64,000 nucleotides of DNA from positions 2,356,001 to 2,420,000 of the forward strand of contig NZ_CP095462.1 in NCBI RefSeq assembly GCF_023022965.1, given 5' to 3'. Below the pieces are notes generated by a model that saw only the letters and a program-made list of their open reading frames with translations, ran no database searches and had not been told where the DNA came from. The position numbers and the translations under genes are program-made. This document shows, in pieces, positions 29,036 through 61,164 of this stretch. How positions within the stretch are numbered: position 1 is the stretch's first letter; each line of letters opens with the position of its first letter. This stretch comes from Ectobacillus sp. JY-23 (GTDB lineage Bacteria > Bacillota > Bacilli > Bacillales > Bacillaceae_G).

Positions 29036-30421
29036 CTATTTTATCACGTATGCTTGCTTTGGATGATTCACCTGATTCGGGTATTTTAACTTAATTTTGC
29101 CTTTATCTAAAAGCTTAGCTAAATAATTGTTTCTCAGACCATCCGGTGTTCGCTCTAGCAGATAAGCAAACTCCTTAAGTCTCAATGGACGCTTGGCACA
29201 AAGCTGCAAAATAATATCTTCCATCACGTCTGGAGACAGGCGTTTTTTCTTCCTGGCTAGCTCAGCTATTTGCCATAGCTCTGCTTCTATATCATCCTCT
29301 AGCACCTCTTCATATATATCTTCAGTACTAGGCACTTCGACAGAATCCTTCATTTTGTTATTTATGGACCTCGTTGATTCACTATTTCCGACAATATCTT
29401 TATTATAGGAGTTGTAATCTTTATTATCGGAGCCAAACTCTTTATTCACGGAGATTACGTCTTTGTTAGCGGAGTTAAAATCGTTATTATAAGAGTTTTT
29501 AACCTTATTATAGGAGTTGTAATCTTTATTATCGGAGTTTCTACCGTTAGTATAGGAGTCCTCATTTTCCTGCCATCCCGACAAAAATGCCTCTTCTATA
29601 GGTACAATCATAGGATATATCTTCAGGGTAAGATTCGTTTTATTATTTTCCGAATCAGATGTAAACCTCATGATCCAATTGAGCTGTTTTGCCGCTACAT
29701 CCATATTGCGTATACCTGAGCCAGCTCTTTTACATAAATCAATCATAATAAACATTTTAAATAGATTGGGATTTCTTAAATTGCTAATGCCGCCCTCAAG
29801 AGCTTGTTCTGCTGCAACACGTGAATAACCAGGGTTAGTGAATATATATGCATCTTGTGTTTTCTCGATTACAATACCGCCCTCTGCATAATAATCTCCA
29901 TGTACAATCGCATTTATAATCGCTTCATGAAAAATAGTAGCTTGTTCAACTCCAAGATCACCAGACATACTATTCCTTATATTATCTAATGTTCGGAAAT
30001 AGAAGTCGTATATGTTTCCAGACCAAGTTCCATCTTGTGAAGTAAATCGATGGGACCAAGATAGATTTTCATTATTTCCCAAACTCTCACGATACTCAAG
30101 AAAGTATTGCGGCAAAACTTCTGTAATCATTCGCTCTTCACTAAACATTAATAAGCCAGCCAAAGTCAGTCCTTCTTTATTTGTATTACGAATCTTTCCC
30201 CAGGCACCGATTTTATAAAGAAACTCCTTTAACTCCAGCGCATTCCACGGATGATCCGGCTTGACCGCCGCAAAGCGCTGCCGGTAGTTTTTTACCGACT
30301 CGAAATTCAGTTCATTGAGGCCATAGTGCTCTAAAATCAAGCTATCGGAGGTCTGGCCGGTATGATCTATTGTATAACTCAATGCATTTCCTCCTTCCAT
30401 ATCCGTTCTTTCACGCAGCAT
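29036..30421 (-). CDS. Schlafen/AlbA_2-family ATP-binding protein lacking the AlbA_2 domain
   Basis: 461 aa. The central part (about 30-260) is the GHKL-like ATP-binding core that normally follows an AlbA_2 (Schlafen-like) DNA-binding domain: LEHYGLNELNFESVKNYRQRF, then GLTLAGLLMF and EAIINAIVHGDYY. The first 20 residues join this core directly, so the roughly 120-residue AlbA_2 domain is absent. Yet AAAGGAG stands well placed before the ATG, which suggests a real gene rather than a truncation product. Residues about 285-345 are a run of seven-residue repeats (S-x-N-K-D-x-N), encoded by 21-bp DNA repeats. A winged-helix-like C-terminal part follows. Family members are often near mobile or defence genes; function unknown. 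Confidence 0.75.
   Translation of the reverse strand: MLRERTDMEGGNALSYTIDHTGQTSDSLILEHYGLNELNFESVKNYRQRFAAVKPDHPWNALELKEFLYKIGAWGKIRNTNKEGLTLAGLLMFSEERMITEVLPQYFLEYRESLGNNENLSWSHRFTSQDGTWSGNIYDFYFRTLDNIRNSMSGDLGVEQATIFHEAIINAIVHGDYYAEGGIVIEKTQDAYIFTNPGYSRVAAEQALEGGISNLRNPNLFKMFIMIDLCKRAGSGIRNMDVAAKQLNWIMRFTSDSENNKTNLTLKIYPMIVPIEEAFLSGWQENEDSYTNGRNSDNKDYNSYNKVKNSYNNDFNSANKDVISVNKEFGSDNKDYNSYNKDIVGNSESTRSINNKMKDSVEVPSTEDIYEEVLEDDIEAELWQIAELARKKKRLSPDVMEDIILQLCAKRPLRLKEFAYLLERTPDGLRNNYLAKLLDKGKIKLKYPNQVNHPKQAYVIK
29396..29563 (-). repeat. 21-bp in-frame minisatellite within the AlbA_2-less gene
   Basis: Eight consecutive 21-bp units at exact spacing, each giving a heptad of the form S-x-N-K-D-[YF]-N with acidic or aromatic variants. 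Two pairs of non-adjacent units (1 and 6, 2 and 7) are nearly identical, which suggests duplication of a five-unit block. Because 21 is a multiple of three, unit gain or loss would keep the frame. Confidence 0.9.
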
Positions 30422-59537: not shown

Positions 59538-59830
59538 TTAATATTGCTGGATCTCTAGATTGGGAAGATACGTCAGTAACTTCACGAGGTACTGATAGAA
59601 ATCCATTCCATTTGCTTTTGCAGTTTCTACAATGCTCAGACAGATAGCGTTGGCCTCGGCACCAGCTTCACTTACGGAAAACAGCCAGTTTTTTCGACAA
59701 TGATATTCAGACGAATGGTATGTTCAGCCGGATTATTGTCTATTTTAATGCGCCCATCGTTCAAGAATACTTGTATTCCGTTTGTGATGCTTATGATCTG
59801 TGCTGTTTGTAACAGATTGTTTTTACCCAT
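59538..59830 (-). pseudogene. IS66 transposase (tnpC) 3' remnant, frameshifted
   Basis: The upstream frame reads FLNDGRIKIDNNPAEHTIRL (the IS66 C-terminal motif). It then loses frame at an A-run, and a second frame continues RKNWLFSVSEAGAEANA followed by LSIVETAKANGMDFYQYLVK and ends at 59538. Together they give the last 95 or so residues of an IS66 transposase. The first two thirds, with the DDE residues, are gone. Confidence 0.8.
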
Positions 59831-60102
59831 GTTAAATATGCTACACTTTCGCAGAGATAAATATAGCTTCCTCGCGTAATGAATCGTTTCTTTTTTTGAA
59901 ATGCTTCGTACAACAGTATAAAAGGTTGTCTGTTGGTGTTGTTCATATGTGCCACTGAAGAATGTTTCAGTCTTGCCTGTTTTAGTCGTTCTAGTTGATA
60001 TGTATAATTTGGCGGGATCTTTTATTTGTATCAATGGGTGTGTTCATTTTGATAGATCTTATACGTCAATAAACTTAGAATTGCAGGGATGAACAATATT
60101 AC

Positions 60103-60690
60103 GGGACACCTAAACTCAGATTTATACTCTCTCCTGGTCCGCGAGACTCTCTTGCGGGACACCTAAACTCTGATTTATCCTCGCTCGTGGTCCGCGAGAC
60201 CCTCTCGCGGGACACCTAAACTCTGATTTATCCTCGCTCGTGGTCCGCGAGACCCTCTCGCGGGACACCTAAACTCTGATTTATCCTCGCTCGTGGTCCG
60301 CGAGACTCTCTTGCGGGACACCTAAACTCAGATTTACCCTCTCTCCTGGTCCGCGAGACTCTCTTGCGGGACACCTAAACTCAGATTTACCCTCTCTCCT
60401 GGTCCGCGAGACTCTCTTGCGGGACACCTAACTCCAGATTTATACTCTCTCCTGGTCCGCGAGACTCTCTTGCGGGACACCTAAACTCAGATTTATACTC
60501 TCTCCTGGTCCGCGAGACTCTCTTGCGGGACACCTAAACTCAGATTTATACTCTCTCCTGGTCCGCGAGACTCTCTTGCGGGACACCTAAACTCAGATTT
60601 ATACTCTCTCCTGGTCCGCAAGACTCTCTTGCGGGACACCTAGCCTCAGATTTACCCTCTCTCCTGGTCCGCGAGGTGTTCTTCCGGCGC
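60103..60690. repeat. Tandem array of 11 units of 53 bp with conserved hairpin
   Basis: Units start at 60103, 60156, 60209 and so on at exact 53-base steps to 60633, then a broken unit. Each carries GTCCGCGAGA-CTC-TCTTGCGGGAC or a variant that folds into a hairpin with one bulged G. One stem position varies as G-T (eight units), G-C (60156, 60209) and A-T (60580), always pairable; the last unit has lost the right arm. 53 is not a multiple of 3 and the array has no ribosome binding sites, so it is not coding. The three types of unit lie in blocks, which points to duplication by unequal crossing-over or slippage. Confidence 0.92.
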
Positions 60691-60798: not shown

Positions 60799-61164
60799 TT
60801 AACATACAACTTTCGGTGATTGTGGGATGGCCTTTGGCTGTTGGATGGATAACCCTTCAAGAAGCCAGTGCAGCTTCTGTTGAGACAAATTGCGAACTTC
60901 CTTCTCATCCTTGGGCCATTGAAGCTTCCTACTATCCAAGCGTTTATAAAGCATCGCGAGGCCGTCGCCGTCAAAATACAAACATTTGTAGCGATCTTTA
61001 CTCCATCCAGAAAACAGGAAGATGGAATCACCGTACAGATCAAATTTGAAAGAATCTTGAATCAGTGTTGCCAGGTCATCAATGCCTTTTTCCATATCTG
61101 TCTTGCCGCAAATAATGTATATGTTTTTTACCGCTGTGTAATCGCACTTCACAGAAGCTTCCAC
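60799..61164 (-). CDS. tnpB: IS66 family accessory protein TnpB
   Basis: 121 aa, near the usual TnpB length. TAVKNIYIICGKTDMEKGID, then LFSGWSKDRYKCLYFDGDG and LDSRKLQWPKDEKEV are the IS66 Orf2 (TnpB) signature. TnpB is needed for IS66 transposition along with TnpA and TnpC, neither of which is intact here. The frame is unbroken, so the loss of the element is recent or the gene has not yet decayed. The first five residues (MEASV) are not typical and may come from a joined sequence. Confidence 0.85.
   Translation of the reverse strand: MEASVKCDYTAVKNIYIICGKTDMEKGIDDLATLIQDSFKFDLYGDSIFLFSGWSKDRYKCLYFDGDGLAMLYKRLDSRKLQWPKDEKEVRNLSQQKLHWLLEGLSIQQPKAIPQSPKVVC

Follow-up and report, generated by a model that had tools for sequence, protein, structure and literature searches.

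In the REP/REPIN and RAYT systems a nuclease-type gene of the chromosome stands beside palindromic repeats which are also scattered through the genome, while in type III toxin-antitoxin systems a repeat array precedes the toxin gene. Repeated sites, some of them at helical spacing, are also found in parS clusters and in iterons. In addition, a minisatellite carried by a MITE has been described from Porphyromonas gingivalis (PMC4596501).

The tandem array described here lies in a stretch of 64,000 nucleotides from Ectobacillus sp. JY-23 (contig NZ_CP095462.1, positions 2,356,001 to 2,420,000; the window), whose genome, G000, is one contig of 3,893,080 bases. A first-pass annotation, made from the letters alone, had proposed an array of 53-bp units with a hairpin kept by matched base changes, placed in degraded IS66 DNA near the replication origin, and had considered a structured RNA, a site for a hairpin-binding protein or transposase of the REP/Y1 kind, or a copy-number-variable satellite. 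The reading we favour, with confidence about evenly balanced, is that the array of the window represents one scattered copy of a DNA satellite belonging to a gene for a nuclease-like NERD-domain protein. The linkage and co-occurrence of NERD genes and arrays are strong, a point on which we have hardly any doubt.

The window array and its setting

The array is real: Tandem Repeats Finder placed it at 60102-60675, with an exact period of 53 bp, 10.8 copies, 95% matches and 0% indels, the period being, as noted on the first pass, not divisible by three. The units follow directly on one another at 53 bp and resemble each other along their whole length, and hence do not have the CRISPR-like layout of unique spacers between repeats. 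According to the unit listing, each is composed of an imperfect dyad core and a variable linker. The array starts and ends inside the dyad and, relative to the sense of the partner NERD gene described below, lies on the minus strand.

Pfam matches bear out the degraded IS66 setting, with the array between tnpC and tnpB remnants (Table 1), and dnaA, about 31 kb further on, the origin-proximal position. In a second genome of the genus, G001 (locus L212), segments matching the IS66 remnant to the left and right of the array stand 1.35 kb apart, without an array.

Table 1. Features of the window around the array (window coordinates)
Feature	Position	Strand	Basis
53-bp tandem array (~10.8 units)	60102..60690	+	Tandem Repeats Finder, unit listing, ends in phase
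First complete dyad core, unit positions 8-36	60134..60162		Two imperfect half-sites around a 5-base centre, every 53 bp
Array flank resembling the flank of a NERD-linked array	60074..60102		Window 60079-60251 vs L026 4418-4246, 80%
TnpC, C-terminal remnant of IS66 transposase	59672..60034	-	PF03050, 23.2 bits vs cut-off 23.1
IS66 TnpB	60799..61164	-	PF05717

Linkage of arrays with NERD genes

The partner NERD gene lies 259 kb from the window array, at 2,675,276-2,676,223 of the genome, between two arrays of the 53-bp unit. Both in G000 and in G001 it has 316 codons, is enclosed by two arrays and stands downstream of a gene read as groEL. A pattern scan of named genomes for the unit returned three contigs, all from Ectobacillus antri, and G001 very probably belongs to that species. 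In G036, which is of a different family of the same order, the NERD gene is 79% identical and its end is 40 bp away from an array, an array being found directly 3' of the gene in all three genomes.

Array and gene also occur together. Among 397 genomes of the order, an array query taken from G036 matched only three, G000, G001 and G036, while the NERD protein query matched 303 of the 397 at E 0.001 and reached 79-100% identity in the same three only, the other NERD matches being at most 42% identical among the matches listed. In the other two genomes of the genus, G002 and G003, both the array and full-length relatives of the protein are missing. A second array family was found in 6 of the 397 genomes, and the same six hold its NERD protein at 78-100% identity, the next value being 51%. 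Since all six are of one genus, shared descent contributes to this pattern; the first family spans two bacterial families.

Linkage was then counted at 47 loci (46 distinct) of NERD relatives, picked by protein similarity and not by repeats, using a tandem-repeat search. An array stood just 3' of the gene at 43 of the 46 distinct loci, in every case on the 3' side, with a period of 52 bp at 27 loci, 53 at nine and 51 at six, and one called at 104. These arrays (class 1) have a median of about 8 copies, the largest having about 24, and their units are mostly different between the 43 loci. At the three loci without a called array (L089, L090 and L100), the best self-similarity lags were 52 for L100 and 53 for L089, which ends 109 bp after the match, and none stood out for L090. 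The remaining two full-length NERD genes of G036 and a second one of G098 have 52-bp arrays too. As a control, 400 kb of stretches placed at round coordinates in five of these genomes together with the 64-kb window, 464 kb in all, held nine such arrays, the window's own included, which means that a random 1-kb segment touches one in 2.7% of cases. Moreover, arrays distant from NERD genes are in some cases members of a NERD family of the same genome: in G153 the array of locus L105 has five further strong matches, each at its own place, and a weak one. Regarding the earlier proposal of a hairpin-binding protein or REP/Y1 transposase, a dedicated protein partner seems right, but its kind was wrong, the partner being a NERD-domain protein.

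The partner protein

The protein of locus L026 scores 54.5 bits against PF08378, for a cut-off of 22.1, and all 39 aligned NERD proteins match this family at E 0.1 or better. In these 39 relatives no variation was seen at D91, K106, E59 and three of the zinc-ribbon cysteines, and E104 and the fourth cysteine are kept in at least 90%. The D...ExK motif of the partner protein is intact and its zinc-ribbon cysteines are present, the protein being a putative nuclease. In the tail, W287 and C288 are likewise invariant over the 39, and the last ~55 residues, read by eye from the alignment, possibly form a winged helix-turn-helix; the Pfam matches of the 39 proteins include no helix-turn-helix family and leave the C-terminal part unnamed. 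The dN/dS values, 0.12 between G000 and G001 and 0.06 with G036 (where dS is saturated), indicate that the gene is under purifying selection. No promoter shared between gene and array was seen by eye in the 46 loci. In a draw of 299 genomes of the phylum, which held few of the window's order, three passed E 1e-30, namely G000, a second genome of its order, and a member of the same class that has 49- and 82-bp arrays nearby.

A protein of this kind could also be a stored defence nuclease, the arrays acting as a sink which holds a toxic or antiviral NERD nuclease until needed and the dispersed arrays adding sink sites. In fact, the NERD domain is also present in BREX PglW and MADS MAD6, to which the partner protein has weak sub-threshold profile matches, and the several NERD paralogs per genome (8 full-length in G342), together with several broken copies, fit the turnover of defence genes. 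Nevertheless, defence genes often ride on plasmids and phages, and among 72,556 plasmid records and 50,697 phage records no match for the NERD protein was found; viral contigs, scanned on the basis of short peptide patterns, gave no match for the protein and the alignment either. Furthermore, the PADLOC matches are weak, the best being to PglW with E 0.00016, and in the neighbourhood surveyed, that of G000, the NERD gene adjoins a gene read as groEL. We consider a defence role unlikely.

A second class of pairs and the helical period

A 385-residue NERD protein from G001 was used as the query for a second class, being matched in 25 of 42 relatives and returning 30 loci. With an array score limit laxer than that of class 1, arrays of period 19-21 or 40-42 bp were found within 900 bp at 23 of the 30 loci (13 on the 5' side only, five on the 3' side only and five on both), as against 1.4% of random 1.8-kb control segments touching a 19-21/40-42-bp array. 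The remaining seven loci have no array of the expected period, one of them having a 61-bp array which is off the rule. With a DNA helical repeat of about 10.5 bp per turn, 21, 42 and 52.5 bp correspond to two, four and five helical turns. Periods near these values, dyads without RNA-type pairing (see below) and the possible C-terminal helix-turn-helix suggest, taken together, phased sites for the cognate protein.

Three repeats of similar period may be mentioned here. At G001:C45 26536-27492 (L206) a class-2 NERD gene is followed immediately on its 3' side by about 21 copies of a 21-bp repeat, and at G000:C1 2050807-2051957 such a gene, interrupted by stops, still has a 20-bp array beside it. 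At window positions 29396-29559, a 21/42-bp tandem repeat lies within a minus-strand reading frame (29036-30421) and codes for a repeated SYNKDYN-like stretch; because it sits inside a reading frame, it was not counted as a second NERD array.

The matching of unit and protein was assessed over 946 locus pairs, by a comparison of units that allows no gaps. Six pairs had a same-orientation unit identity above 0.60, all six with a NERD identity of at least 79%, while five of the 11 pairs with a NERD identity of at least 60% did not exceed 0.60 in this measure. L108 and L114 combine a NERD identity of 79% with a unit identity of 0.42, at the shuffled level, and for pairs with a NERD identity below 60% the mean unit identity also equals that of shuffles, 0.39. 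That similar NERD proteins may have dissimilar units means that the unit changes faster than the protein.

Dispersed copies, movement and orientation

The copies elsewhere that the first-pass annotation had proposed to look for do exist: 19 arrays of the 53-bp unit (one being a single unit) were extracted from G000, 11 from G001 and 10 from G036, the latter two counts coming from the part of the candidates that was scored. At five loci, arrays stand at matching places in G000 and G001. Copy numbers vary at such places (10 at L031 and 11 at L046; 7 at L036 and 6 at L048), the array being, as allowed for on the first pass, a copy-number-variable satellite, and something beyond slippage holds it. 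Of the outcomes that the same annotation had named as speaking against it, the lack of covariation was observed, but dispersed and orthologous copies were found. Phage and plasmid records held no match for the window array DNA.

Fragments of the last ~28 codons of the NERD gene lie near the arrays at L022, L023, L028, L030, L034 (twice) and L043. Since the dispersed arrays fetched from G153 and from the second family tested have no recognisable NERD 3' end, this Ectobacillus feature is not general. One locus could be compared with a clean empty site: relative to L214 in G001, L022 in G000 has some 1.2 kb inserted, with a direct repeat of 10 bp, a candidate target-site duplication, that contains one mismatch. 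In this insert lie the 3' end of the NERD gene, the array and a segment of 362 bp between inverted repeats of 27 bp. In addition, segments of the flanks of the window array recur at the arrays L024, L029, L042, L044 and L047. From the transposon-like insert at L022 and the window copy in IS66, at least some array copies in Ectobacillus are probably passengers of insertion sequences; as the L022 array lies within such an insert, with its 10-bp repeat, mobility there need not come from the NERD protein. At L035/L045 the sequences had diverged too far for an empty site to be interpreted. The 362-bp segment itself (L022 3547-3908) is MITE-like and abuts the array, and its ends match in L023, L028, L030, L032 and L035, among others.

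Composite arrays were found in G036, where type-A units stand beside, or run into, units with TATACC/GGTATA half-sites, the period still being 53; type-A arrays join or adjoin this repeat at L051, L052, L053, L054, L055, L057 and L058. Among the three full-length NERD genes of G036, only that of L051 adjoins TATACC/GGTATA arrays, and a NERD array of another genome (L091) has a similar half-site. Tandem repeats of 123 bp were also observed at L052 (13088-13355), L132 (14664-14926) and L135 (6501-6888), the stretch GATGTCTAGCTCCA being common to those of L052 in G036 and L135 in G204, genomes of different families.

The arrays are oriented with respect to their surroundings. The gene on the NERD-upstream side is co-oriented with the array in 31 of 39 cases (p = 0.0003), neighbours being uncurated reading frames of at least 120 codons and matching places in two species counting twice, and there is no bias for the gene on the downstream side (21 of 37). 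In G000, 16 of 19 arrays face the same way relative to the replication fork, and one replichore carries 16 of the 19, as counted by hand from the array places and dnaA with the terminus assumed opposite dnaA. These two counts in G000, as well as the helical phasing, would suit arrays that are chromosome-organising sites, that is, NERD-bound platforms for anchoring or segregation like parS clusters. A housekeeping function of this type is poorly compatible with the patchy distribution (3 of 397 genomes), the rapid change of the unit and the conserved nuclease motif, and it appears improbable.

The unit: DNA site or RNA hairpin

The first-pass claim of a hairpin kept by selection was based on one stem pair occurring as G-T, G-C or A-T in different units. 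These states are indeed present in the window (G-C in the units starting at 60155 and 60208, A-T in that starting at 60579), but they differ by one-sided changes around a G-T pair, and not by both arms changing together. In 353 units extracted from G000 (161), G001 (99) and G036 (93), this pair (17/27) was G-T in 234, A-T in 38, G-C in 30, T-T in 23, A-C in 13 and T-C in 10, the next variable pair (15/29) being G-C in 244, G-T in 51, A-C in 39 and A-T in 6. A formal covariation count on 100 of the 289 distinct units, one row being misaligned in the stem, gave 0.097 versus 0.103 in shuffles, with 436 of 500 shuffles at least as high: the hairpin is not kept by covariation. Of the cells of this set, 92.5% were paired. 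Moreover, a mutual-information ranking of unit positions placed no stem pairs among the top 40. What is conserved in the dyad is its sequence rather than its pairing. Successive spacings in the window's family are exactly 53 in 306 of 313 cases, while two random units agree on average in 70% of bases: exact spacing, rather than pairing, is the strict feature of this family.

Over the class-1 loci, some of which are related pairs, the dyad was stronger than in shuffles (p <= 0.05) at 22 of 43 and was not significant at 21. The 2362 pair cells of these 22 loci included 104 A-C, 77 G-T and 132 other breaks and 9 double changes, counted in the sense of the NERD-gene strand, and the consensus units of 42 loci folded with a mean z of -3.35 on one strand and -3.02 on the other (p = 0.35). 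Equal folding of the strands and the types of broken pairs are better explained by a DNA site composed of two half-sites than by an RNA. An array transcribed behind the NERD gene into a structured repeat RNA, e.g. the antidote of a type III toxin-antitoxin system, would agree with the 3' position of class-1 arrays, with the tendency of dispersed arrays to follow co-oriented genes (31 of 39) and with consensus units folding better than shuffles, but given the absence of a strand difference, of a G-T preference among broken pairs, of covariation and of any Rfam match at gathering score in the window, it is quite improbable. Passive satellites, that is, slippage products beside NERD genes by chance or tolerated there, of which copy-number differences at matching places and copies riding in insertion sequences might be a sign, are contradicted by the linkage counts (43 of 46 loci versus 2.7% of control segments), by a period nearly fixed over different units and by a presence that tracks one NERD clade, which leaves them very little probability.

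Proposed mechanism and implications

We therefore return to the satellite of a NERD gene as the preferred explanation. The unit is likely to be the binding site of the cognate NERD protein, whose putative C-terminal winged helix-turn-helix would read it, each unit providing one site, often as a dyad of two half-sites. A period of about five turns would put all the sites on one face of the DNA, where the protein molecules could assemble side by side. The NERD nuclease may then act at its own array, and the repair of breaks there could lengthen, homogenise and copy the array, in this way keeping the pair going as a chromosomal couple of nuclease and satellite. This maintenance of the array by nuclease action is the least certain part of the proposal and is put forward tentatively. 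Insertion sequences would carry copies of the array along as well, which the position of the window copy in IS66 suggests. Several results go against this explanation: 21 of 43 loci have no significant dyad, five of the 11 locus pairs with similar NERD proteins do not have similar units, 3 of 46 class-1 and 7 of 30 class-2 loci have no called array with the expected period, and a symmetric site does not explain the orientation bias of the arrays.

In general terms, we lean towards a general and apparently undescribed class of chromosomal protein-DNA pairs, in which a NERD nuclease that has a zinc ribbon and reads DNA with its tail is coupled to a private tandem array, the period being near a whole number of turns (two, four or five); a Bacillales genome would contain several such pairs, with their arrays scattered as satellites. 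Were this the case, the anonymous satellite repeats of many Bacillales genomes would become predicted targets of a named gene family, and a widespread and poorly understood nuclease domain would gain a candidate substrate. The private pairs of one genome would, in turn, constitute a natural set of DNA-recognition modules, as well as a direct means of testing how tandem DNA is built and maintained in bacteria.

Comparison with known systems

With parS clusters and iterons the likeness is one of description, the partner here being a NERD protein and not ParB or Rep. The P. gingivalis minisatellite shares with L022 the position of a tandem repeat in a mobile insert, although no linked nuclease family was seen in the accessible part of that paper (PMC4596501). 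Type III toxin-antitoxin systems (ToxIN, CptIN) also have a nuclease gene beside a tandem repeat array; in the present case, however, all 43 called class-1 arrays are 3' of the gene, class-2 arrays occur on both sides, and arrays are dispersed with no sign of selection on RNA structure. Known NERD-domain proteins share with those described here the PF08378 match, the conserved D and ExK and the zinc-ribbon cysteines. In the open-access literature searched, no description of tandem arrays with NERD genes was found: arrays beside these genes are a feature of the present loci, and the pairing of NERD protein and array DNA is, within that scope, apparently undescribed. As to REP/REPIN and RAYT, the 25 Pfam families listed for 39 NERD proteins include no Y1 (HUH) transposase. 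The resemblance consists in a partner gene standing beside palindromic repeats that are dispersed in the genome (in G000, two of the 19 arrays adjoin the NERD gene), with the difference that here the repeats form long tandem arrays with a helical period.
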